Of a DNA stretch of 64,000 bases, positions 5,909-30,242 are shown piece by piece (position 1 is the stretch's first letter; every line of letters starts with the position of its first letter). The DNA is taken from NCBI GenBank assembly GCA_009801085.1, contig VNWV01000001.1, forward strand, positions 6,510,001 to 6,574,000. The letters run 5' to 3'. The notes below the pieces were generated by a model. The model had not been told where the DNA came from and ran no database searches. It saw only the letters and a program-made list of their open reading frames with translations. This DNA is from Lasiodiplodia sp. COLG20. Its lineage: Eukaryota; Ascomycota; Dothideomycetes; Botryosphaeriales; Botryosphaeriaceae. Both the position numbers and the translations under genes were made by a program.

Positions 5909-8900
5909 TTAAGCCCACATAGCCTTGAACTTCCCGTTAAACTCCTCGGAAAGCTTCTTGAAAGCCGCCAACACGTCAAGTAGGCTGCCATCGCCATCAT
6001 CTTCCCAAGCCGGGGCGCTCAACACTTCGTCTGCACCAGCCTTACCAGAGCCACCAGCACCATCAGCACCAGCACCAGCACCGGCACCAGAACCACCACC
6101 ACCGACACCACCCCAGCTTGCACTATCCTCATCATCAGCATCAGCAGCAGCATCCGCCTTAGCCTGGGCATCAGCCTCAGCATCTTCCTCCCAGCTTTCA
6201 AGGGTGCCCGTCCGATCGGCCTTTGAATTCCTTCTCGGCATCACCTGCTTCTTCTCAATCTTGCCCGGCGCACCAACTGCACCTCCCTCCCACAGTTTCT
6301 CTTCTTCCATCTCCTCACCACCGCCGCCCGCCATGGCATCCATAGCCCCATCATCGCCACCCGCAACGAAGCCCTCCAAACTCGCCACGATCGTCGCCAG
6401 CACCATCGAGAAGTCGTTGAGCACGAACCACACGTCACCGCGACGGATGCCATTAGCCGCAACGAGGGCAGACGCGTCGCCATGCTTGAAGAAGTCGAGG
6501 AGGTAAGCATTCAACGGCAAGTCCTTGCCCTGCTCGTTTGCGCCCGAGGCCGGCTGCGGATAATCGCAAACCGGCATGTAAGGAATGACAGCTTCCTCGA
6601 GAAAAACGCCAGCGCGCACGGTGCGGCAAAGCTCGCCAACAGACGTGATGCCAGCGTCGTCAGCATGGCCAGACAGCGCGACGAAGGCGGAGCGGACGTT
6701 GGGCCGCGTGCATGCAGTGTTGGCGCCATCAGCGCTGCCGTCGCCGCCGCACTTGACGCCCGTCAGCGGCAGCACGCTGTCGGGCTCGTTCACGTGCTGA
6801 GCGACGTAGGTGCGGACGTACGTCTTGAAGACGTCGAGCGTGTCGTTGTTGTGCGCGCGCAGGATGGTGGCGGCGTCGGCGGGCAGCGGCGCGAGGATGA
6901 CGGACGACGGCGACGTCTTGACGACGGCCTCGACGAACTCGCGGTCGACGTGGCGGCAGTAGCGGCGGCCGAAGATGTGCGAAAGTACTAGCATGATCGT
7001 GCGGAGGATGCGCTCGGTGGTCTCGGGCTTGTGGCGGATGCCGGCGCAGAGGCGCTGGAAGTAGCCGTCTTTCAGCAGCGCGTGGAAGGCGAAGCTGGCG
7101 TTCTCGGTGTAGTACAGGTGCGAGACGCAGCCGGCGAAGTTGAGCGGCGTGCCGCGCTGGTCGAGCAGGAACTGGCGCCGGAGGTACTCGAGGGAGAAGC
7201 GGAGGTGGTGCAGTACGGTCATGCGGTTCTCGTCGCCGCCGAGGTAGAGGCGCGGTTGGGAGAGGAGCGCGTCTATGGAGCGTAGCGCGAAGGCGGAATG
7301 ATTGGACTCGGAAAGTAGGGTGCACAGCCTGAGCACCAGCGTCGTCGTGATGGGGAAGTGTCCTGTGAGCTCAGGCAGGCGAGAGCTGAGCAGACGGCAG
7401 ACCTTCGAGACAGGGATGCCGTGGAAGACAACGTTGCCGAGAACATCGAATCCACGGCGACCAGCACGGCCGGCTGCTTGACGGAAATTGAGCGCGGTGA
7501 GGAATACCGAATCACCGCAAAAGACAACCGTCTTGCAAGGCATGTTGATACCCAAAGCGAGCGTGCCAGTGGCTACAACGACCCGCAAGTAGCCCTTTCG
7601 GAAGAGTAGTTCGACGATGTGCCGGTATTTCCTGTTCATTCCAGAATGGTGGACGGCTATGCCGCGACCAAGCGCTTCAATCAACCAGTCTGGGACGCCG
7701 CGCCACCGAAGCTCCTTAGCATACTCATCCAACTCAGACTGCTGGAGCTTAGCACCATCTTTGAAATGGAACCCGTCAACGGGCGCCTCTGGGTCAAAGC
7801 TTTCCCATGTGTCCAGTGCAATAGCGGACTTCTCCCTCTCAAGATCAGCTTTGCTCATACCTTCCTCCTGCATCTTCCCAGACTTCTTTCCAGCTTTGAT
7901 TTTGGATATTTCCTTGCGGTTCTTCTTCCACGTCTCCCAGTCAGCCAACTTCTTGGTCCATACTGAGGACGTTTCTTTCCACTTCTTCTCAGCCTCCTTC
8001 AGCTCAGCCATTACAGCTTGGCAGATAGACTCACAGTTGCCGCGGTCATAGTTGAACAGGATGGCTGGAAGAGCAGATTGTTCATGCAGACGACAGAGAA
8101 GTGAAAGAGCAGTCTTGCACAAGCCCGCATTGTCCAGCCCAATGTCACTCTCGCCTTCCAGTTCATACAAGCTCCTGCCAAGATCTTGGATAACAGCATC
8201 ATACGGAGCATCGCGTTCTGTCATCCATTGCTCGAGCAGTTGCTTGAGTGACTTGCACCAGCTGATTATGTCAGCTTGAGCAATGACATCTGGGAGAGCG
8301 TACTTAGGGTCGAGCGTATCTGGAACCTCGTGTGTCTCGCTCTCGTGAGATTTCATAGCCTTCCATAGTGTGAAGCAATCACGAGCTTCGAGCGAGAAAT
8401 CTTCAGGCATTCCACGAGATCGGTTCAGTAAGCTCGCGACCGGATGCACGAACCGGAAATGTTCCACGCCCTTGTCCAAGTCCACACGAGGGATAGTCGG
8501 AGCTTTGGGCAGCCCCTCAAAAATTAGGTCATCGCGTGGGGTGAAGACATACTTCCGCAAATCGGAATAACGGTGCGGATGGTGAACCATGGCAAGATCG
8601 TGGCCTGCAGCTTTCTGCGCTGACGCAAGCCAACTGCGGAACGCTTCAGGATTTCCAACAGTTGCGGAAAGTGCGATGATTGGACAGGGAGACAGCAACA
8701 GGAGTTGTTCCCAGACAATACCATCATCCGCCTGGCCGATGCAATGAACTTCGTCGAAGATGATCCGCTTCACACGAGACGACCATGAGCTCGCATTGAC
8801 AGGGGCCAAGAGCATGATCTGGAGAATGTGTGGCACCGTTACCAAGACTTGGCAACCAGTTGGATTGTTGACGCGGTAGTCGCGAGTGTGAATTGCCCAC

Positions 8901-11417
8901 ACTGACCTGCCAGCGTGATTGTACGTCTTGGAAAATCGAGCTTGGATCTCTGCCGCAATCTGGTTGACGAGTGCTTTGGTGGGCGCCACGTACACGATGA
9001 CACCGTCGTTGGAACCTTCGAGTATCTTCTTCATAGCGTAGAAGGAGATGAAAGTCTTACCCGCACTCGTTGGAGCTACCACGAAAAGGCTCTTGTCAGC
9101 GTCAATGGCATCGAGCACTTCACGTTGCCATCCATCGGGAAGGAACGGAACTCGATCGTCGTGTGCTGAATCCATCTTTCGATCAAAGTATGGACCGCAA
9201 TGAAGAAGTTGGAATTCTTTGGATGGAAGAGGTATCTTCAAGCTTGGGTTCCGTCCAGATAGTGCGAATTCGAACGGCAGCTTTCTGTCCGGAGCCAGTG
9301 CTGCGCGAATAGTGAAAGGTAGCCCAAGCGAATCCACAGTGCGTCGAAGCCTCTCGTCCATGGTCTTTGTGATGCTGCTTCCAGTGCTTAGGCGATGGGT
9401 AGCGTCCCAGATTTTAGCTGCAAGTGGCAGATTGGGAGCCTTTGGACTGATCGAGGTGGACACTTTCCAAAGCTCAAGCAGGCAGTGCAGTGCGTAGAAC
9501 TCGATCTCAGAGCCGACAACAGCCTGCTTCGTAGTTGGAAGAGAGCCGAGGAACTGAAGAGCCTTGATGTAGCGCATGGTGGTTTGCTGCTCCCGCTGTA
9601 TGTCTTTGCAGACCACATGCCATGAATTGAACACTTTCATGTTCTGGGCCACTTCCTTCTTCTCTTGTTCGGCAGCAAGCTTTTCCATCCTCGCTTGCTT
9701 CTGCTTATTTTTGCCACCACCTATCTTGGAAGTCTGACTTGACTGTTGTTGAGCTTTGGCCGTGTGCGATGCAGCGGGTGGTCCGTCCTGGGTGACAATA
9801 GTCTCAGGTTCCAGGGCTTTCCCAACAGCGTTGGTCAGACTTGCAGCGTAAGCCATCATTTCAGCCATGAAACGTTGGTCTCGGCGGCGCGCATAGAAAG
9901 CTGCACGGTCCTTTGCGGCTATCATGGCTTTACGGTTCAACGGACGTTTCGCATTGTGCCAGTGTGTCAATTCGCGAAATGCCTTTGAAGTATTGTAGCT
10001 TGGTCGCTGAAGCGCGTCATCATCGACATCCAGCTTGACGGGTTGAAGGTGCTTGTCGAACCCTTCGGCAGCAAACGGAAGCAGTCTGCGAAGTGTCGCG
10101 AACTTTTCCGCAGGGCCTGTTAAATCATTTTTCACATGCGAGTGTTGACTCTCGGGAACGATGGTGTCCAGTGTGACCAACGAATTGACGATCCTTGCGA
10201 AGTCTCCTTTCAGCTCCGGCAGTGGAAGCTGTCTGGCGAGGACCATGTTGAACAATCTTCCATCAACGAGGTCGCTGATATCGCACGGGAGTTGTACCTC
10301 GCTCACAAACGCCTGCCATAGTGGGCTCTTCATAATGGCCAATGCAGTTTTAGAGAACTGCAAGAGAAAGTTCTGTGATGCCTCGGAGGATTGAGTAGAC
10401 TCGAAGGAGCGGAATTCGAGCGAGAGCTGGCTTTGAAGGACTGTATGCAGAACGAAAGACGCAACAACGGGTGAAGGCAAGTCTCCATCGGAGACCAGGT
10501 TCGCCGTGGTGGCGATGACAAGGTATAGACGCTCCGAAAGTTTCAGGTCCCCACGTTCGTGATGATCGACAAAGACTGTGTATAGCTCATCTCCAAACAC
10601 GAGCTTATCGAAGTTGGTATCCTGGCCAGCTGGAGGAGACTGGTTCAGAGCAGGACGCTTGGTTCTGTGCGACTTGGACATGCCCTCGATTACCGCAGTA
10701 ATAGCCTATGGTACCGTTAGCATCAGGATGACTCTGTATGTTGATATCAGCGCGAAAGCAGACTTACTTTAGTATCTCTCCATTCCAGTCCATTGATCAA
10801 CGCGACACTATATCCGCGCGTAATAAGCGAGCAGATTGCAAGGCGAAGATCGAATTTTGCGTCCATATGAGGGATACAGTGGCAACAATCGGCAGCACCA
10901 TCGTTCATCAAGACAAACATGTATGAACCAGTGGTAAGCGCAGTGTTGAATGACTCGCTCGTCAGCGAGGGGAAGACAAGAAGCTTCATGGGAGAAGATC
11001 CACGGGCGAGGTTGGCCTGGAGATGGCGTATGACAACGGCACGAGCGAGGTGGTACTTGGCCGATTGAGTCTCGTTCGCATGGGAAGGTATGCACAGGTG
11101 CTCTCTGTCGTCAAAGAATGCCAGGTGGAAGTTGCAGTTGCGCCGATGGAGATTTTGCAGGAAGTCCTCGATGAGCCAAACGGCATGCAGCATCTGGAAG
11201 CCATCTGCGAGGGTCAGCACAGCATCCGTACGAGAAGATGAGAGGACGAACCGTCGAAGTCAAGAAGCTGGTCAGAGAAGCAGTGAAGCAGAAGCGAGTC
11301 GCCTTCGACGAGGAAAGGCTCACTACCGGCATAGTCGCCGACAAGGTCAACACGGCGGGAGTATAGCTGGCCATAGAATTCACCCCAGTCAGGCGGTTGC
11401 GGAGAATCGGAGGACAT
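5909..11417 (-). CDS. DDX60-like Ski2-family DExH RNA helicase
   Basis: Three exons (11417-11252, 11204-10768, 10705-5909) with introns of 47 and 62 nt give 1799 aa. The N-terminal ~200 residues match the DDX60 amino-terminal region (YGQLYSRRVDLVGDYAG...; NGLEWRDTK at the end of exon 2). The SF2 core carries motif I APTSAGKT (about residue 742), DEVH (about 850), SAT (about 881) and, in the second RecA domain, motif VI GRAGRRGFD (about 1279). A Lys/Glu-rich insertion lies between the lobes. The last ~120 residues are acidic and Gly/Ala-rich, ending in a short amphipathic tail. Animal DDX60 is an interferon-induced cytosolic factor acting on viral RNA; the fungal role is inferred. The gene is transcribed divergently from a ZNFX1-like gene across a shared promoter. 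The segment 6750-7310 has much higher third-position GC than the rest of the gene. Confidence 0.93.
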
Positions 11418-11472
11418 GCTGGAGGGAATACTTTCTTGCAACCGTTGGTGGTATGCAGCTCGAGAGGTGTGT

Positions 11473-11508
11473 AGTGGGAGGGAGGGAAATGAGGGCGGGC
11501 GATATGCA
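11473..11508 (-). promoter_or_regulatory. Mirrored promoter/leader element, DDX60-side copy
   Basis: Read on the minus strand it starts with the 15-bp core TGCATATCGCCCGCC (11508-11494) and continues CTCATTTCCCTCCCTCCCACT. The core ends 76 nt before the DDX60-like ATG. A CTGCTTG heptamer lies 17 nt upstream (11526-11532), as it also does 11 nt upstream of the other copy. Confidence 0.8.
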
Positions 11509-11701
11509 TAGCGAGCGACTGCCGACAAGCAGGTTATCCGCTAGGCACCAGTGAGGCCATGCAAACAGCGCGTGGTGCGGTGCGGCGCGTCGCGTCGCGT
11601 GGCGGGTGTGCGTTTGCTTGTTCGCGCCTGCCATATGCATCAACACTTTCCTGCGCGCCACAAAATTTCTACGTATCATAATTTTTTTGTAGAACAATCC
11701 G

Positions 11702-11801
11702 ACTTATGCGGGCACTGGAAGCTATCGTGCGGACGTAAATGTGGAATTCAAAATTGTACATCCATGTCCGGACGATAGCTTCAACTGCCTATGACATGAG
11801 C
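11702..11801 (+). repeat. Foldback (MITE-like) element, copy 1
   Basis: The ends form an imperfect inverted repeat whose strongest arms are 11718-11734 and 11766-11782 (17 bp, one mismatch; GAAGCTATCGT[G/C]CGGAC), separated by 31 bp. The whole 100 bp aligns without gaps to 50340-50241 (minus) with 77 identities by hand count. It is non-coding, and no clear target-site duplication could be assigned. Confidence 0.8.
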
Positions 11802-12046
11802 GTCAAAAAAATATTGACGACGAGGGTGATCTACACTGGTGAAGTACATGCGGCTCAGCGAGGCAGCATGGCGCCGTTGTGGCTGTGCATGATGCGGCGC
11901 GCGCTGGTGCCTGTTGCGGCGAAGCATTCGCAGCCGATTGCCAGCACATCGCCTTCCCCGCAGACAAACAAAAACCTACTCACGCGCGCGCCGGAACCTT
12001 CTTCAGTTCGTTGCGCGTGGCGTCTCATCTGCTTGAAGCTAGTTAT

Positions 12047-12083
12047 TGCATATCGCCCGCCTTCATTTCCTTCCCTCCCCACT
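12047..12083 (+). promoter_or_regulatory. Mirrored promoter/leader element, ZNFX1-side copy
   Basis: Carries the same 15-bp core TGCATATCGCCCGCC at 12047-12061, followed by TTCATTTCCTTCCCTCCCC and ACT. The core ends 41 nt before the ATG at 12103. It differs from the DDX60-side copy at two pyrimidine positions plus one extra C. Confidence 0.8.
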
Positions 12084-12102
12084 GCAACCCGACCGTACCG
12101 CT

Positions 12103-15100
12103 ATGTCCAAAAAGAAACAACCATGCCGTTTGTTCAACCGGCCCGGAGGCTGTCGTTATGGAGTTTCCTGCAGATTCTCTCATGCAACTCCTTTGACGGC
12201 CTCAGCCGAGACTCCTCGACGCCCAACTCAAGAGAAGAATCGCGGCCTATCCAACACTGAGGTTGAGTTCCGTAATTGGAGATTCATGATTCCGATGGAC
12301 GGCAGCCCACCCGCACCTCTGGGCCCCCAACTTTCAACATTCCTCCGGAAGGGCGCTGAACTAGTAGCCTCTGATCCAGGAATTCGTCAGGATGTAATCT
12401 CTCGACTGGCGTCCACTGGCGGTCTGGCGCGCGTTAGAGAGCTAGCGGAGCAAGACTTTTCATCGCTCAGTGACAGCATGAAGCTTCGCAGGTTCCTCAG
12501 CCACCATGTCCCGTTCTTCCAAATCATCACGCATCCTGATGTACTTTGTTCTATCCTCTTGGAGCAACCGCTCGGTGACCTGTTCACCTTCCTCTATGGC
12601 ATCAATGGCCAAAGAGCTGTGCCGTTCTTCTCATTCATTGCTCAAGTTCTCTCGGACACTATCGCCACGGCATTACCCGCGACATCTCCCTCAAGGGAGG
12701 AGATTTTCCAGCTCACCTTCTTTGCCTTGGCCAAAGTCATCGACATTAATGGCAGTGCTCAGATTAACCCCGACATTGTCAACCTTACCGGAGTCTTCTC
12801 AGTCTTGCTCACCCAGTTAGCCGAAGCGCACGGTGAAGCAGCATGCGAGAAGCCACTTGCTTCTCTTACCAGAATCCAGCAGCGACTGGGAATTGGAGAC
12901 GCAATACCGGCAATCACCACCAAGCCCAAGAGTTCAGCCAAGCAGACGTCCTTTACTATTCCGATTGACCCACCGGGCCACCTCTCACCTCAAGGACCGC
13001 GTCACAACAACGACCATGCGGATATACAAAAGATCGAGGTGCTTCCAACTTGGCAAGAGGTTCAATCGCTGAGACCAGAGTATCTTCCTGTGAAGGATCC
13101 ATCCACCTGGCACAAGCCAGGAATTCAAGGTCTTCTCGACAGAAACTTCCGGCTACTTCGAGAGGATACTGTCGGTCAGCTTCGGGATGTCATTCAGGCC
13201 GAGCTGGTGCGCATGCAAAGCCCTGGAAACAGTGCGATTGGTTGCAACAAGAATCAGCAAGGCGTTCGCACTTACACATATTACGGCGTCAGTGTCTCAG
13301 ACTTTTCAGTTGACCGCAGGGACGGATTCCGTTGCCAGGTCTCATTTCCACAGCTGCAGCATGTCCGAGTAATGAGCGCAAGAAAGAGAGCAGAGTGGTG
13401 GGAACAGTCACGGCGTTTGCAGACAGATGCGCTAGTATGCTTACTAGATAAGACTGGTCTGCTGCTCTTCTGTTCGGTGGTCACCGAGGCGACGGCAGCG
13501 GCGAAGCCGAATACAACTTCCAATCATGCTGGCAACGAGTCGGCTGGGATGAAAGAACGGAGTCTCCATTCAGACAGCGAAACCGCATATCTGAGGCTGT
13601 GCTTGGTTGAGCAGAGTGACGAACACATTGACGACCTTTTGCGTCGTTCATGGAGCACCCGTCAAATGTGCCTGGTTGAATTCCCAGGTGTGCTTCTGCC
13701 GGCTTTCCAACCTACACTCAAGGCTTTACAACAGATGTCATCGAGCGGTGATGTTCCATTCTCCGAATTTCTCGCACCAAGCCAAGAGGTATCAGGTGTT
13801 GTGCGCGTTCCGCCCCCCGCTTATGCCAGACGTCCAAATTTCCATTTCGATCTTCGCAGCATCACGAATGGAACTACGAGGATTCAACTCTCGCCCCAGG
13901 GAGGATTTTGCATCAGTGAGCTGATTGAAAACTCCTCACTCGATGATGCACAAGCAAAAGCAGTGGTAGACTCGCTCACGCGTAGTTTCGCGCTCATCCA
14001 AGGCCCACCCGGCACCGGAAAAAGCTATACCGGCGTCGCTTTGATCAAGGCTCTTCTCGACAATCGCAACGCGGCAAACCTTGGTCCCATCGTGTGCGTC
14101 TGCTATACCAACCACGCGCTCGACCAGCTTCTTGAGCATTTGGTGGACGCAAACGTTCCACAGATTATCAGAGTTGGATCACGGTCGAAGTCTGAGGTGT
14201 TGCGGCCTCTCTTGCTCCGCGAGGTCTCCAAGAAAATGGACAAAACTAAAGCCGAGAAGGCCGCTGCTTGGGAGCTCCGGACTGTGATGGAGACAGACGA
14301 GAAGGAGATTGATGATCTCATTTCTGCCCTTGACAATGCAGACTCGTGGATGTTGATCAAAAACCATCTCCAGCGATACTCTCCACACCAACATGATGAT
14401 ATCTTCGGCTCTACCTTTGATGAAGACGGCTTCATGTTGGCAGAGAGGGACCCAAAGAGAGACCTTTCGCGTTGGCTTCGTGGGGGATTTTCGCTCAACT
14501 CAAACCAGTCAGAGCGCACCATCTCTGCCCTCCAATCCTCCTCAGTCTTGTCTTTGTCGCGTGGTGAAAGACAAAAGCTCCATCGCTACTGGGTCAATCA
14601 GTCGCGCGATAGCGCACGTCGCAATCTGGTGCACGCCCTGCGCGAATACAACAATCGAAGAACCAAGTACCAGCGCAACCACTTGGAAATGGACCTTCGG
14701 TGTCTTCAAGAGGCACACATCATCGGTATTACTACCAGCGGCCTTGCACGTAACCTCGAAATCCTTCGTCGTGTTAGGGCAAAGGTCATGATCTGCGAAG
14801 AGGCTGGTGAAGTTCTGGAATCGCACACTCTCACTGCGATGCTTCCTTCGATCGAGCATACAATCCTTATTGGCGATCACGAGCAACTGCGGCCTCAAAT
14901 CCAACGATACGACTTGGGAAGAGAGCATCCTCGTGGTGAGCAGTATTCGCTGGACGTATCGCTCTTCGAAAGACTGGTACGCCCGAACGATGATACGGCA
15001 ATCCATTTACCTTACATCACCCTCGAGACGCAGCGCAGAATGCACCCGATGATCTCTCAACTTGTTCGCGAGACGATCTACCCAAATCTTCAGGACGCGC

Positions 15101-17895
15101 CGTCAACAGCCAATTACCCATTGGTTCCGGGCATGAAGGATCGACTGTTCTGGTTTGACCATCGCGAGTACGAAGCTGGCGCGGACGAGTCTCAGTCGAC
15201 AAGCCACAGCAATGACTTCGAAGTTTCCATGACGGTGGGCCTTGTATCACACTTGATGAAGCAAGGCGTCTACCGCGCTGAAGACATTGCTGTGCTAACT
15301 CCTTATCTGGGGCAGCTTCACAAACTCCGTACCAGGCTCGGTCAGATGTGGGAGCTTATCATCAACGATAGGGATCTTGACGATCTTGAGAAAGCAGGAA
15401 TCTCGAGTGAACAAGTTAGCAAGACATCCGCTCTTAATGCGCTGAAAGTTGCAACCATCGACAACTTCCAAGGAGAGGAGGCAAAAGTCGTCATCATTTC
15501 CCTTGTCCGCTCCAACAAGATGAACAAATGCGGTTTCCTGAAGACATCAAACAGGATAAATGTCCTTTTATCACGCGCACAGCATGGCATGTTCATCATC
15601 GGCAATTCAGAGACCGCAGGAAGCATCCAAATGTGGGCGGATGTTCTCGACATCTTGCGTACCAGCGGGCAAATTGGCAATGCCTTCGAGCTTCAATGTC
15701 CCCGTCATCCGGATAAGCTAATCACAGCTGCCAAGCCGGACGACTTCACTCAGTTCTCCCCTGAAGGAGGGTGCAACCTCAAGTGTGACCGGAGGCTGGG
15801 ATGTGGCCATTCCTGTATCAACAAATGCCACTCTGACCTGCTGCACGACGCTGTCGTGTGTTTGGAGCCTTGTCCCAGACCCTTCAAAGGTTGCGACCAT
15901 TCCTGTCCTCGCACCTGCGGTGTGGCCTGTCCGGAGAAGTGCAAGGTCATTGTATTCGACGCTGCCAGAACACTTCCTTGCGGACATAGAAAGACAGAGT
16001 TGCCCTGCTGGCAATCTCAAGACCTCTCAACCGTGACATGTCAGGTGAAGGTCTTGCGCACCATTACGGGCTGCAAGCACAAAGTGGAGCTTCCCTGCCA
16101 TGTGGATTTCCGGTCCGATAGCTTCTTATGCCCGGCACGCTGTGACGAGCTGCGTCCATGTGGTCACGCATGCACGCATAGATGCCACACATGCAAGACT
16201 CGGGCGAACGAGGTCATTATTGAAGAAAATCACGGCATCTGCCAGCAGGTGTGTGACCGTAATTACAGCACCTGCCACCACAGTTGCAAAGAGACGTGCC
16301 ATGGCGATAAGCCATGCCCTCTCTGCCAAGCTCCGTGCGAAGTCTTCTGCGGCCATTCAAGGTGCAACAAGAAATGCCACGAGCCATGCGCACCGTGTGC
16401 CGAACAAACATGCGCTTCGCATTGTCCCCACAGCAAGTGCAGCCTTCCATGCGCTGCGCCATGCGACTGGATTCCCTGCTCAACGAGGTGCGAGAAGCTA
16501 CTCTCGTGCGGCCACCAGTGCCCGTCTTTGTGCGGAGAAGCCTGTCCGGGCCCCAAGTTCTGCCAGATTTGTGCTGCCGATAGCGTCAAAGACCAGCAAG
16601 TCGACTTCATCGAGATGCTTACATACAGGGAAGTGGACCTTGATGAAGATCCCTGCCTTTTCCCTCCATGCGGTCACATCATGACAATGGCCAACATGGA
16701 CGGTCACATGGACATGTCCAAGCACTACGTCACGGCACCGGATGGGAGATTTGTTGGGCTGAAGCCAGCGCCGCCATTCTCAAGCGACGAACTGAAGGCT
16801 TGCCCAACCTGTCGTGCTCCGCTCCGCAGTATCGCCAGATACGGACGTATCATCCGCCGTGCATTATTGGACGAGTCAACCAAGAAGTTCATCCTCTGGT
16901 CCCGGGAAGATTATCTCCGACTCCAGACGCGATTTCAAGACGCGCACTCAGCGCTCACCAGTACGGCCGATACAGTCGTTGTCCGCGCAGTCGTCCCGAT
17001 GGGGCTCAAAATAGCAACAGGTGGACCCTCAGTCCATTTCAAGTCTATGAAAGCAGCCGCCAACACGCTATCGCTCGAAGGCCGTTACAAGACCATCTTC
17101 TCCCTCCGCAGCCAGATCAACACGCATGTCAACAGAGTCCAGCACGAAGAGCAGCCCTTCCGCAAGGTCCACGACTTCTGCCAAGACGCCCGGCGCAGGC
17201 GCGAGGTGCAAGGCTCCTTCACCTTCTCCGAAGAGATCCTCCAAACGCGCGCACACCTCCTCGCCTCCTCGCTCCTCATCCGCTGCGATCTCGCCATCCT
17301 CTCCGACCTCGTCGCCGTCTGGCGCGACAAGCTGCCCGCCCTACTACGCGGGGACAGCGCCGTCGACCTCTCCGGCAACCGCCGCCGCTGCCTCGAACTC
17401 CTCCAAGAAGCAGACGCTGTGGACAGCCCGGCGCAGAAAGTCGAGGCCCTCCTCTTCTACGCGCAGCACAACGCCATCGAGCGCCTCTTCGCCGCCGCCT
17501 CGCCGCCGAAGCAAGATCAACTCCGCGAAGAAGCCCTCGCCCACGTCGCCACCGCGCGCAAGATCTGCGAAGCGCACCAGGGCACCACCGCCGGCCTGCT
17601 GGACGAGGTTGACGCCGTGGGGAATATGCTGCGCGGAGACACGTTCTTCAGCGTCGTCACGTCCGAGGAGCGCCGCGCGGTGCTGGCGGCCATGGCGACG
17701 GAGTTTCGTGGCACGGGGCACTGGTATTACTGCCAGAACGGCCATCCGTTTACTGTTGGTGAGTGCGGGATGCCGATGCAGCTGGCGAGGTGCCCGCAGT
17801 GCGGCGCGGCGGCTGGTGGCGCGAATCATCAGCCGGCGGAGGGAGTGAGCAGGGCGGAGGATTTGGAGAGGGAGTTGAGGGATTTGCATTTGTGA
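12103..17895 (+). CDS. ZNFX1/Hrr1/SAD-3-like SF1 helicase with CCCH, NF-X1 and RZ zinc fingers
   Basis: One uninterrupted exon of 1930 aa; the start ATG at 12103 opens MSKKKQPCRLF. A CCCH finger (C-x7-C-x5-C-x3-H) lies at about residues 8-27. The UPF1-like SF1 helicase has Walker A GPPGTGKS (about 633), the EEAGE Walker-B box (about 899), GDHEQLRP (about 923), QRRMHP (about 976), TIDNFQGEE (about 1118) and LLSRAQHG (about 1152). A Cys/His-rich NF-X1-type array follows (about 1200-1490). An RZ-type finger (YYCQNGHPFTVGECG...CPQCG) lies at about 1871-1906. This is the architecture of animal ZNFX1, an RNA-binding antiviral and small-RNA inheritance factor. Relatives are S. pombe Hrr1 (RNA-directed RNA polymerase complex) and N. 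crassa SAD-3 (meiotic silencing). A cytosolic or perinuclear RNA-silencing role is inferred. The last ~650 bp are unusually GC-rich at third positions. Confidence 0.93.
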   Translation: MSKKKQPCRLFNRPGGCRYGVSCRFSHATPLTASAETPRRPTQEKNRGLSNTEVEFRNWRFMIPMDGSPPAPLGPQLSTFLRKGAELVASDPGIRQDVISRLASTGGLARVRELAEQDFSSLSDSMKLRRFLSHHVPFFQIITHPDVLCSILLEQPLGDLFTFLYGINGQRAVPFFSFIAQVLSDTIATALPATSPSREEIFQLTFFALAKVIDINGSAQINPDIVNLTGVFSVLLTQLAEAHGEAACEKPLASLTRIQQRLGIGDAIPAITTKPKSSAKQTSFTIPIDPPGHLSPQGPRHNNDHADIQKIEVLPTWQEVQSLRPEYLPVKDPSTWHKPGIQGLLDRNFRLLREDTVGQLRDVIQAELVRMQSPGNSAIGCNKNQQGVRTYTYYGVSVSDFSVDRRDGFRCQVSFPQLQHVRVMSARKRAEWWEQSRRLQTDALVCLLDKTGLLLFCSVVTEATAAAKPNTTSNHAGNESAGMKERSLHSDSETAYLRLCLVEQSDEHIDDLLRRSWSTRQMCLVEFPGVLLPAFQPTLKALQQMSSSGDVPFSEFLAPSQEVSGVVRVPPPAYARRPNFHFDLRSITNGTTRIQLSPQGGFCISELIENSSLDDAQAKAVVDSLTRSFALIQGPPGTGKSYTGVALIKALLDNRNAANLGPIVCVCYTNHALDQLLEHLVDANVPQIIRVGSRSKSEVLRPLLLREVSKKMDKTKAEKAAAWELRTVMETDEKEIDDLISALDNADSWMLIKNHLQRYSPHQHDDIFGSTFDEDGFMLAERDPKRDLSRWLRGGFSLNSNQSERTISALQSSSVLSLSRGERQKLHRYWVNQSRDSARRNLVHALREYNNRRTKYQRNHLEMDLRCLQEAHIIGITTSGLARNLEILRRVRAKVMICEEAGEVLESHTLTAMLPSIEHTILIGDHEQLRPQIQRYDLGREHPRGEQYSLDVSLFERLVRPNDDTAIHLPYITLETQRRMHPMISQLVRETIYPNLQDAPSTANYPLVPGMKDRLFWFDHREYEAGADESQSTSHSNDFEVSMTVGLVSHLMKQGVYRAEDIAVLTPYLGQLHKLRTRLGQMWELIINDRDLDDLEKAGISSEQVSKTSALNALKVATIDNFQGEEAKVVIISLVRSNKMNKCGFLKTSNRINVLLSRAQHGMFIIGNSETAGSIQMWADVLDILRTSGQIGNAFELQCPRHPDKLITAAKPDDFTQFSPEGGCNLKCDRRLGCGHSCINKCHSDLLHDAVVCLEPCPRPFKGCDHSCPRTCGVACPEKCKVIVFDAARTLPCGHRKTELPCWQSQDLSTVTCQVKVLRTITGCKHKVELPCHVDFRSDSFLCPARCDELRPCGHACTHRCHTCKTRANEVIIEENHGICQQVCDRNYSTCHHSCKETCHGDKPCPLCQAPCEVFCGHSRCNKKCHEPCAPCAEQTCASHCPHSKCSLPCAAPCDWIPCSTRCEKLLSCGHQCPSLCGEACPGPKFCQICAADSVKDQQVDFIEMLTYREVDLDEDPCLFPPCGHIMTMANMDGHMDMSKHYVTAPDGRFVGLKPAPPFSSDELKACPTCRAPLRSIARYGRIIRRALLDESTKKFILWSREDYLRLQTRFQDAHSALTSTADTVVVRAVVPMGLKIATGGPSVHFKSMKAAANTLSLEGRYKTIFSLRSQINTHVNRVQHEEQPFRKVHDFCQDARRRREVQGSFTFSEEILQTRAHLLASSLLIRCDLAILSDLVAVWRDKLPALLRGDSAVDLSGNRRRCLELLQEADAVDSPAQKVEALLFYAQHNAIERLFAAASPPKQDQLREEALAHVATARKICEAHQGTTAGLLDEVDAVGNMLRGDTFFSVVTSEERRAVLAAMATEFRGTGHWYYCQNGHPFTVGECGMPMQLARCPQCGAAAGGANHQPAEGVSRAEDLERELRDLHL

Positions 17896-26473: not shown

Positions 26474-29026
26474 TCAATTCAGAGCAATTATTTTGAACTC
26501 TGCGCCTACTTCCTTCCATCCCTTCAACATGGCCTTTCCCAATCCCACGCGACAATACCTTCCGTTGTGCTTCGTCACCAGCATGACATTGAGCAATATC
26601 AGCGGGGATCGAACAAAGTTACGGAGGAGACTTCCAGACTCTGGCAACCAAGAATAACGCAATACTGGAGATCGGTCGTGAAGCATTTCGGGAATATTTT
26701 TGAAATCATCCCAATCTTCTTCTGTCGCTCGAGCAACTGACAGAGCAAGCACTTCCACCTTGGGTGGACTGTCATTTGCACTGTCCATATAAACAGTGCC
26801 AGTTGCTGGATTGTCAAAAGAAGCCCAACCACGAAGGATGCCATCTCCAGTTCGCAGAAGAAATGGGCCACGCTGATGACTGGTGAAGCCCCCAAGCCGT
26901 TCGAGATTGAGAGTAGCGCATTGGGTGTGCACCAGAAGTTGGCCTGGGCTTTCACGTAGTTCCCAATTGGTCCTCGAAGCTTCTTCAGCAAGGACATCTT
27001 TCAGATACGGATTTTGCGGTCGGGTGGCTTCCCAAAATGCATCGTATGTTTGCCATTTGGCATAGACCTGCGCTGATAGCTGCTCCCAGGACATGGCTGA
27101 ATTGAACTCTGGTAGTGAGCGAGCGAAGCAACCTTCTCTCCATGCCATGATGGAAGTTGCATGCAGAAGTTGTGCTATTCTACCATAGTCTTCAGATGGA
27201 TCCCTGCAACCCCAGAAGAGACGGAGACAGCTCGGAGTAGAGACAATACGTTTAGAGACACTTCGTTTCACAAAAGAACCTAGTGTGGTGTCATTTGTAT
27301 AGAAGCTCCATGTTGCGATAGCGGCCCCAAGACACTTGTAGTGGTACGTGTTGTAATCGATCGCGCGGGCTGACGCCCATGACCAGGATGGAAAGTTAGA
27401 GTTCCTGGATGTTGCCATGGGGGTCCAAAGTATTGCGTCGTCAAATTCACGGAAAGGTATACCGTGCAGGTGGTTTTCTCCGACAATGGAATTCAACATT
27501 CCCATAAAGGCTGCCACTTTATCCTGGGAAGATGTGAGATCGCGCCGACTATATCGAGAGATATGTGGCACCAAGTTGATCCAGTCAAAATGCCCTCTGG
27601 ACGACCTCTCCTTTTTCACGTCCAGGAAAGGATGATACTTTCCAATGTAGAGTAAGCGCTGAGAAAAATACTCTTCTTGGTATGTCCAGCCACGGGTTTT
27701 CCACCTCATACTTCCACGTTGATCTGGGTGGGTCTCGATTTCCTCGACAAGGCGCATTCCGGAGACTCTCACTTCGAACGGCAGCATCTGGCCTCGAGAA
27801 ATTCCGGGAAGCCCCTGCAGGGCATCATCATTGTCCGATGCAATGATCGTGAGAGCAGAGCCTCTGTAGATTTTGTCCATGACCCTTATCATCTCGCCGG
27901 GGTTATCTTGCAAGATGCATAGGCGATCGACCCATAGATACCGCATGGAGAGTTTCTCGCATGCGGTCATGGCGTCTCTGATAGTAGCTGGGATGTTCTG
28001 AGAGTTTAGGTATCCCGGTGTCTCCAGGCTCTTGATATTGGCGGATGTTGCTTTTAAACTCTCCATTGCTGCACCTGAGGCCCCCCAGACGTAGCTAAGG
28101 GCAACATATTCGCATCTTAGTGGAACCATCGTGACACAAGCATCCCGCACGTCAACGACTCTGAGACCTCTGACTCCATGGTAGTTCAGTGATGTCGAGC
28201 ATTGAAGCTGGGATCTTAGTGCTCTCCAATCACTCTCGTCAAGATATTTCTCTTCAACTGTGGTAGTGTCCGCATTGGGTATTTCGGGATCGTCCAGGTA
28301 GATCCGGAAGGTCGGAAAGTATCCCTTCCAGTTTTCGCTAGCGGTGCCGTATCCAATTTGCAGGAAAGCCTGTACCGTGGAATCATTTGGGGAGTAGAGA
28401 TCAAATTCCAAATCAAAGGTTCCTTCCTTGGGTTGGTCCATAGGTTCACGCCGTGCAATGCGCATTCGAATAGCTTGGCACGCAGGGCATTCTTGACAGA
28501 TGTCTATCTTGCGGAAAACGATGTACGAGCGGTGGTTGAGGCATTGGTATAGGTGTTTGAGACGCAAGTGTGTCCAAAAGGAGCAGAGTGATGAATCTGC
28601 CAGGAGAGTCGATGAACACTTATCGCAATCTCCATGAAAGGCTTGCGGAAAGATCCTGGCTGCAGCCGTGAAACCGCGATCGAATGACTTGCAGTACACA
28701 CAGGTACCGACTTCGCATTCGGACTCTGATTCACTGTCTTCTTCACTCATGAGTACATTCTCGGTATCGGAGTTGACATTTATGACATGAGAAATGAACG
28801 AAAAGAGAGACCTGCAAATGAACACAGCAATGCAAAAATGCTGGAAACGTGGTGATTCAGCGATGTCAAGGATAAGAGAATAGTAATAATAAATGAGAAG
28901 TGGCATCACGAAAGTTAAAGTGTATGACATAATGGGAGAATCGAGGAATGAATATATAATTTGAAAGGGTAATGGAGCCATGGAAGAAAGGGGGACTTCA
29001 TAAAGGAGGAATTTACTCGCGCGCAA
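26474..29026 (-). CDS. HET-domain (heterokaryon incompatibility) protein with N-terminal membrane segments
   Basis: One exon. The ORF from 29026 gives 850 aa; an alternative start at 28750 (MSEEDSESESE) would give 758 aa. The longer form adds two hydrophobic stretches (about residues 33-55 and 63-83), which would make it membrane-anchored. An N-terminal Cys-rich block follows (CVYC, CDKC, CQECPAC), possibly zinc binding. The HET domain starts at YVALSYVWG (about 307) and includes IPATIRDAMTACEKL, RYLWVDRLCILQD and the IYRGSALTIIASD block. The C-terminal ~350 residues match the usual tail of long HET proteins. HET proteins trigger cell death after fusion of unlike individuals or in response to non-self. 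The partner that would trigger this one is unknown. Confidence 0.9.
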   Translation of the reverse strand: MRASKFLLYEVPLSSMAPLPFQIIYSFLDSPIMSYTLTFVMPLLIYYYYSLILDIAESPRFQHFCIAVFICRSLFSFISHVINVNSDTENVLMSEEDSESESECEVGTCVYCKSFDRGFTAAARIFPQAFHGDCDKCSSTLLADSSLCSFWTHLRLKHLYQCLNHRSYIVFRKIDICQECPACQAIRMRIARREPMDQPKEGTFDLEFDLYSPNDSTVQAFLQIGYGTASENWKGYFPTFRIYLDDPEIPNADTTTVEEKYLDESDWRALRSQLQCSTSLNYHGVRGLRVVDVRDACVTMVPLRCEYVALSYVWGASGAAMESLKATSANIKSLETPGYLNSQNIPATIRDAMTACEKLSMRYLWVDRLCILQDNPGEMIRVMDKIYRGSALTIIASDNDDALQGLPGISRGQMLPFEVRVSGMRLVEEIETHPDQRGSMRWKTRGWTYQEEYFSQRLLYIGKYHPFLDVKKERSSRGHFDWINLVPHISRYSRRDLTSSQDKVAAFMGMLNSIVGENHLHGIPFREFDDAILWTPMATSRNSNFPSWSWASARAIDYNTYHYKCLGAAIATWSFYTNDTTLGSFVKRSVSKRIVSTPSCLRLFWGCRDPSEDYGRIAQLLHATSIMAWREGCFARSLPEFNSAMSWEQLSAQVYAKWQTYDAFWEATRPQNPYLKDVLAEEASRTNWELRESPGQLLVHTQCATLNLERLGGFTSHQRGPFLLRTGDGILRGWASFDNPATGTVYMDSANDSPPKVEVLALSVARATEEDWDDFKNIPEMLHDRSPVLRYSWLPESGSLLRNFVRSPLILLNVMLVTKHNGRYCRVGLGKAMLKGWKEVGAEFKIIALN

Positions 29027-30242
29027 AATAGGGATCGGTGTGGTTAGCGAAGCGATGATATGGCGTAGATGGCGAAGAGTAGAAAAAGAGGCATGTAAGG
29101 CTGGATGCGGGGTAGACGTACATATTTATCAAGTCGCTGCGGATCAGGCTATGCACAGCCTCAGCCTCGTGTCCATGCACCTGAAACAAATGCCTTTCAA
29201 TGAGCGCGTGGCTGTGTTTTCACCAATTTCGCACTAGCGGTCTCAATTTTTGTCGCACTAGTGTAGCTATTGAGGCACACAAAAACAAAAACGCTTAAAT
29301 ACGAGACTAAACTCCGCCCGATTACAGGGTAATACCCAGGACAGAACAGCAGAAAGATAGTAAAATGTAACCTTAGTCTCTGCCCGTATTTTAGTCCCAG
29401 GTTCTTCAATATTTTCGATAAGGGCCAAGTTGACAATATATGAGACTCCCAAACGCGAATTTCATAGAGCCAATGTCTGCAGAAAATGACGTTCTCACTA
29501 CTGGATGAAGAACGCAATCTCTCATAGCCATGATCCGTGGGTCGAGCAACACATCATCCAGCATCGTCCTGAGAAGTGGAAATCATATATCATGTTGAGC
29601 GCCAATAGTAAATATGTATACACCATCGGGATCTCTTGTTCAGGAATCGAACAGGCCTTCTGATGGCAATGGAGGTGTGGCACAAGGTGAGCCGATGGCA
29701 TACTTTGGAAGAAATTGGTAGCAGCGGCTGTCAAAGCATCACATTAAAGCTACTATGTAAGTAGGTAATCTTCATGACCCTCCTGAGTCCTGAATATAGG
29801 CAGACCAACGCGGCAGAGTTTTATCAAGATGTCCATCGCATAATGCGGCAGCGGGGATGAACGCGAAAGCTGCAGGAAAGAGCAGGGTGACTGGATGGAA
29901 GCAGTCAAGTCCAATGGTAGATTGAAGTGGTCGGGGTACGGCCAGCTCGGGAAGCGAGTTCTCGCGAAGACCGACAGCCGGTGGCGAGGCCGAGGCCGAG
30001 GCTCCAGCTACTGTGCAAGTAACTACTATGTAACCCCCACAAATATTCAACCAGACCCTGCAAGCTTCTACTTAGTCATCTAGTTATGCACTGATTCAAT
30101 GCTTATGTGGCTTGACCGACATGTCCGCTCGGCCTTAAGGTGCTCGTAAATTCCGTCTACAGCGAGGCCGCCTACCATCTACCTTCTTTTTCGGATCACT
30201 TCCCAATTCAGGAGGGACTGAACAGGTAGTATTTTCGATGGT
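29027..30242. other. Intergenic region between divergent genes
   Basis: About 1.2 kb hold the promoters of the HET gene (minus) and the hydrolase gene (plus). Short ORFs have no protein-like character. No repeat or RNA gene was recognised. Confidence 0.6.

Follow-up and report, generated by a model that had tools for sequence, protein, structure and literature searches.

Divergent DDX60-like and ZNFX1-like helicase genes flanking a mirrored leader element in a Lasiodiplodia genome: a possible RNA-surveillance pair

We analyzed a head-to-head pair of very large helicase genes, one DDX60-like and one ZNFX1-like, in Lasiodiplodia sp. COLG20. The stretch examined, referred to here as the window, comprises 64,000 nucleotides (assembly GCA_009801085.1, contig VNWV01000001.1, forward-strand positions 6,510,001 to 6,574,000), and all genome-wide counts refer to the host genome of 43,524,824 bases in 88 contigs. 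On the minus strand, the DDX60-like gene runs from its ATG at 11417 to a stop at 5909 and encodes 1799 amino acids (aa) in three exons and two introns; on the plus strand, the ZNFX1-like gene (12103..17895) encodes 1930 aa in a single exon without intron. The genes are divergent, and the region between their ATGs (11418..12102), a putative bidirectional promoter, measures exactly 685 bp. An earlier sequence-only reading of the window had described this arrangement, and re-derivation returned the same coordinates, sizes and spacing. Twenty splice combinations left the DDX60-like frame open; the model chosen has two GT-AG introns, of 47 nt (intron 1, 11205..11251, GTTCGT..GCAG) and 62 nt (intron 2, 10706..10767, GTAAGT..ATAG). 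Exon 1 (11252..11417) contains the conserved Asp40 of FLVEGDSLL, exon 2 (10768..11204) carries a PIN-like_DDX60 domain match at about 11196-10900, and exon 3 (5909..10705; 1598 codons plus stop) holds the DEAD core at about 9127-8648 and Helicase_C at about 7684-7451.

The DDX60-like product is a full-length DDX60-type Ski2-like helicase. Pfam searches returned DEAD, Helicase_C and, by a narrow pass, PIN-like_DDX60 (PF23002; 27.7 bits against a cut-off of 27), and all of the core motifs sought (I, Ia, II, III, V and VI) were present, which bears out the DDX60 N-terminal blocks and Ski2-like motifs that had been noted from the letters alone. Among solved proteins, the kinetoplastid kDDX60 ranked first at 298 bits, followed by a SKI2 chain at 127 bits, and by bit score DDX60, and not Ski2, Mtr4 or Brr2, is the family nearest to the protein. 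PF23002 is precomputed on the 16 best-listed homologues; PF26076 is precomputed on listed homologues as well and was not reported for the window protein, for which a different copy of Pfam was used. The nearest named relative among the matches listed is a Lasiodiplodia theobromae protein, 92% identical to the exon-3 frame. The protein shares with human DDX60 and kDDX60 (7ase_f) a PIN-like N-terminus and a Ski2-like core with the motifs sought, and differs from them in a low-complexity C-terminal tail and in the marginal score of its PIN-like match. Within the PIN-like region (10768-11417), Asp40, Glu68 and Asp157 are conserved at 97-99% in an alignment of 77 rows; a working nuclease is therefore conceivable there.

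The ZNFX1-like product has the parts of animal ZNFX1: an ARM-like N-terminal domain, a superfamily 1 (SF1) helicase core, NF-X1-like fingers, a RING-like stretch and an RZ finger. The SF1 core (13939..15609, residues 613-1169) comprises AAA_11 and AAA_12 with all of the helicase motifs sought, and among solved proteins it is nearest to ZNFX1, with 378 bits to 9q9z and 93 bits to the next. Downstream of it lie a Cys/His-rich NF-X1-like finger array (15781..16542, about residues 1227-1480), a Cys/His stretch that we call RING-like from its spacing only (16561..16812, residues 1487-1570), and the RZ finger (17692..17853, residues 1864-1917), which scored 77.7 bits against a cut-off of 27 and aligns with the RZ finger of RNF213 over 55 residues with Cys and His matching. 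The sequence-only reading had named the SF1 helicase, NF-X1-like, RZ and CCCH parts, and these hold, with the N-terminal CCCH motif (12124..12183, residues 8-27) below threshold at 19.7 bits against 29. The Pfam ZNFX1 domain, PF25396, is carried by some RZ-bearing fungal homologues among the matches listed; in the window protein it reached 14.9 bits, below the cut-off of 27, and the corresponding region matches 9q9z by fold. Judged by PF25396 alone, the protein would be a diverged relative, and the claim we keep is that it is of ZNFX1 type, not that it is an orthologue. Its nearest named relative among the matches listed, from L. theobromae, is 84 to 88% identical over the aligned parts. Both nearest relatives agree with a Lasiodiplodia or near kin (Botryosphaeriaceae) as the source.

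Comparison with known proteins placed these features in context. An RZ finger is present in animal ZNFX1, and the fungal protein shares with 9q9z and the human ARM domain structure 9eve the ARM-like domain, the pre-helicase region, the SF1 core, the RZ finger and the Cys/His finger array between them; it differs in its N-terminal CCCH motif, in its PF25396 score, in a host without an interferon system, and in a ubiquitin ligase (E3) activity that is predicted. The likeness to RNF213 extends to the RZ finger, whereas the giant AAA core of RNF213 is absent from the fungal protein. Among PDB structures, the C-terminal model matched best to the FAP-80S chain 7zw0_sh (Foldseek E 2.9e-5, 216 columns), which we take to be yeast Fap1, an NF-X1 protein; only part of the model matches, with a low TM-score of 0.16 over the whole, and Fap1 is not known to have a helicase core.

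We then considered the region between the two genes. A repeat search of the window returned a 33-nt inverted repeat, 94% complementary, with one arm at 11476-11508 and the other at 12047-12079, and these arms form the ungapped cores of two leader elements, a DDX60 copy (11470..11508, minus strand) and a ZNFX1 copy (12047..12086, plus strand). Read in the sense of their own genes, the copies match in 36 of 40 columns, with one gap and three transitions, and the leader alignment scored 57, compared with a maximum of 26 among 300 shuffles. Both copies sit near a start codon and are oriented alike with respect to their own genes, and the local alignment of the leaders ends there. Seeded with exact 12-nt matches, a scan of the whole window turned up no further inverted repeat of at least 24 nt within 2 kb. 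The genome has only two exact copies of the 15-nt core, TGCATATCGCCCGCC, and both are at this locus; with one mismatch it has 14 other places (0 for the reversed control), and the six of these that were inspected fall inside frames 136 to 243 codons long from stop to stop and are uninformative. A 24-nt element pattern with up to three mismatches has three genome places, the two here and one on C17 with three mismatches, and the element was not seen in the 1550 and 1325 bases upstream of two unpaired paralogues described below. Because the pattern has this single place outside the locus and none before the paralogues, we rejected the idea that it is a common core-promoter motif. By eye, the 5′ edge of the element in the DDX60 leader shares bases with an ATG, and this ATG opens a frame overlapping the gene out of phase, which makes it more likely that transcription starts inside or after the element.

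The mirrored element was absent from the sequence-only reading and is a hint of co-regulation. We consider it probable that it serves both genes as a control or core-promoter site and that they would therefore be expressed together. It is stronger evidence than adjacency. With a typical gene number of about 13,000, the odds of the two named genes being neighbors by chance are near 1 in 6,500; adjacency alone is nevertheless weak evidence because many comparable pairs would have struck a reader. The best explanation of the locus, to which we assign a probability of roughly 0.5, is that these are intact, divergent RNA-surveillance genes driven by one bidirectional promoter. The shared promoter also contains a fold-back repeat resembling a miniature inverted-repeat transposable element (approximately 11701..11803), also absent from the sequence-only reading, which folds at -59.8 kcal/mol (z -7.6) and has related copies at dozens of genome places; it demonstrates that mobile DNA has reached this promoter. 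Such an event would fit the main rival account, in which a single rearrangement in the common ancestor of Lasiodiplodia and Diplodia joined two independent RNA quality-control genes, ordinary synteny has kept them together since, and the mirrored element is a functionless leftover of a local inverted duplication. We regard this coincidence as tenable, if doubtful: the 36 matching columns of 40, the position of both copies near start codons, their equal gene-relative sense and the end of the alignment at that point all speak against it, and the distribution of the pair in other fungi and the arrangement of the paralogues, to which we now turn, speak for it.

To judge linkage in other species, we used the listed contig sizes and some locus tags from the best 120 of 368, 215 and 166 protein matches. 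Twelve named species appeared in both kinds of list, and seven of them were comparable. Records possibly belonging to different assemblies left five outside the comparison (L. theobromae, with contigs of 650,325 and 179,680, Macrophomina phaseolina, Phyllosticta citricarpa, Aspergillus niger and A. tubingensis), together with other Diplodia seriata assemblies for the same reason. The two genes were linked in two of the seven, both Diplodia, as far as contig sizes and tags reveal linkage, orientation and distance not being readable from them: in D. seriata they have consecutive locus tags (SLS54_000486 and SLS54_000487) and a contig of 1,213,100 for both, and in D. corticola a contig of 454,120 is listed for both. 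Different contigs were found in Aplosporella prunicola (660,631 and 1,115,350), Aspergillus cavernicola (448,729 and 405,933), A. ibericus (502,011 and 222,913), A. heteromorphus (936,261 and 588,181, the strain of one record not being visible) and Viridothelium virens (111,835 and 430,946, strains not visible), so that for the last two the records carry no visible proof of a common strain. In trees of 22 DDX60-like and 23 ZNFX1-like proteins, both window genes fell in Lasiodiplodia plus Diplodia clades with 100/100 support, the ZNFX1 clade including one further protein. Since the genes are linked in Diplodia and not in Aplosporella, the three Aspergillus species or Viridothelium, the pairing is probably a local, younger linkage. 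The pair thus recurs beyond this strain, and an ancient pairing was rejected for the species compared. A fungal DDX60 and ZNFX1 pair was not found in titles and abstract openings among the literature matches listed, a set mostly outside subscription journals.

Paralogues of both genes, which the sequence-only reading did not include, are present elsewhere in the genome. An intact second DDX60-like gene (C86:2879-8350) encodes 1772 aa with three introns and is 58.6% identical to the window protein; its product groups with Neofusicoccum at 92/98, under the starred support level. One of its introns, of 49 nt, lies inside helicase motif I, where the window gene has none. The second ZNFX1-like gene is divided between the end of C69 (residues 1-119) and C87, has an RZ finger, and in both parts is 99% identical to database protein P0012. 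A second head-to-head pair was rejected: upstream of the C86 gene are frames that by eye resemble a pogo-type DDE transposase, and upstream of the C69/C87 gene (C69, L024:4374-5894) is a dynamin-type GTPase frame (PF00350, 107.8 bits), Mx-like by analogy only. The second copies were not seen paired on their contigs of 10 to 23 kb, beyond which distant linkage would be out of reach. PF20173 is present at three places in the genome, in the window, on C87 and, as a partial match, on C12. Several homologues end near residue 1473; loss of the RZ finger was rejected as the explanation because the C87 copy runs on in a second frame with RZ, so that an intron is likelier. A 1465-aa ZNFX1-type helicase at C12:3983318-3987712 has NF-X1-like fingers and, by eye, an apparently degenerate RZ.

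We also considered the link to RNA silencing, since the sequence-only reading had likened the ZNFX1-like protein to SAD-3 and Hrr1. Under this hypothesis, the gene would be the local SAD-3/Hrr1, working with an RNA-dependent RNA polymerase (RdRP) in meiotic or transposon silencing, and the DDX60-like protein would assist. RNA interference genes (RdRP and Argonaute) are present, as RdRP matches occur at five loci and Piwi matches at six places (two with internal stops, maybe introns), and the proteins have a broad SF1 group in common. SAD-3 (1160 aa), Hrr1 (999 aa) and RnhA (1231 aa) all act in silencing (PMC5384783), and a Caenorhabditis elegans paper calls Hrr1 the Schizosaccharomyces pombe orthologue of ZNFX-1 (PMC9276528). 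The window protein, with 1930 aa and an RZ finger, is outside that range of 999 to 1231 aa, and no RdRP or Piwi match was found within the 64-kb window. A better fit is a 1379-aa frame on C78, with scores of 420 bits against 9q9z and 113 bits for PF25396; no RZ was found in it, and one NF-X1-like finger was seen by eye. By size and domains, as distinct from SAD-3 sequence, the C78 helicase is likely the SAD-3/Hrr1-type helicase of this genome, and the window protein is probably not. The silencing analogy is therefore not directly transferable to the window protein, and a silencing unit at this locus is very improbable. Elsewhere, at C19:7643-12775, RdRP exons are followed, 52 nt past the last frame, by a same-strand 830-aa frame for an SF1 Upf1-like helicase, a possible fusion or tandem.

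DDX60 and ZNFX1 are known mainly as interferon-stimulated antiviral factors, and kDDX60 is located on the kinetoplastid 43S initiation complex. In our proposed mechanism, the bidirectional promoter with its mirrored element would drive joint expression of both genes. Binding RNA via its SF1 core, the ZNFX1-like protein would cluster or tag it by means of its RING-like and RZ modules, which would serve as a ubiquitin ligase triggered by RNA. The DDX60-like protein would work at the small ribosomal subunit, engaging RNA there and helping to keep it from being translated. RNA-activated ubiquitin ligase activity is reported for ZNFX1 (PMC13270118). Because relatives of both proteins have been solved on ribosomes (kDDX60 and the FAP-80S chain), the comparison suggests that translation may be their meeting point. 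The same structures also feed a rival, namely that both proteins police stalled or faulty translation without an antiviral role, kDDX60 being the best solved relative on one side and the FAP-80S chain, over part of the C-terminal model, on the other. Ustilago maydis and budding yeast are not known to have RNA interference. Both lack a DDX60 entry in a helicase table (PMC12511879), which would be odd for a general ribosome factor, and mammalian relatives act on viral RNA (PMC13270118, PMC11494928). We consider purely ribosomal quality control quite improbable.

Several points weigh against the preferred reading of a co-regulated RNA-surveillance pair. Five of the seven comparable species lack the linkage, and that in the related genus Diplodia may be only inherited synteny. 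A local inverted duplication could account for the leader element, and the PIN-like_DDX60 match, which clears its cut-off by only 0.7 bit, is marginal. The C78 helicase may be the nearer ZNFX1 orthologue by descent (113 against 14.9 bits for PF25396; 420 against 378 bits to 9q9z), because Hrr1 is called the ZNFX-1 orthologue (PMC9276528); the window protein is the RZ-bearing type. Finally, the kDDX60 and FAP relatives would indicate translation or ribosome quality control besides viruses. From the sequence-only reading, which had proposed a co-expressed unit sensing viral, transposon or unpaired-gene RNA and possibly older than the interferon circuit, the two families, the head-to-head layout and recurrence in Diplodia survive, and co-regulation, which we infer, gains a new hint in the leader element; great age does not survive, given the different contigs in five of seven species and the unpaired second copies, and the silencing link retains the shared broad family and is otherwise weakened by C78.

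Taken together, these comparisons suggest that the products of the pair could quite plausibly act on foreign or aberrant RNA, although we stop short of calling this probable; an antiviral function in particular is suggested by the relatives. Neurospora has a gene programme induced by double-stranded RNA. In a bolder and, as a whole, unlikely version, the pair would be a two-gene fungal innate antiviral unit, in which one bidirectional promoter, inducible and marked by a mirrored element unique to it, turns on an RNA-triggered RZ-type ligase helicase and a ribosome-linked DDX60 together, and foreign RNA is clustered or tagged and barred from translation; such a unit would parallel the interferon-stimulated pair while needing neither interferon nor SAD-3-type silencing. 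The locus hints at a possible shared RNA-defence switch outside animals. If so, a kingdom that has no interferon would run two factors of the interferon-stimulated type as a single switchable unit, it would become testable whether the DDX60/ZNFX1 partnership belongs to the proteins themselves and not to the interferon circuit, and fungi with knock-outs and resident RNA viruses would be simple systems for ZNFX1 and DDX60 effects on RNA. Should the pairing prove accidental, the presence in one genome of an RZ-bearing ZNFX1-type protein and, apart from it, a SAD-3-like helicase still splits two roles that are often merged.

A gene with a HET (heterokaryon incompatibility) domain lies at 26477-29125 of the window, ~9 kb away from the pair.
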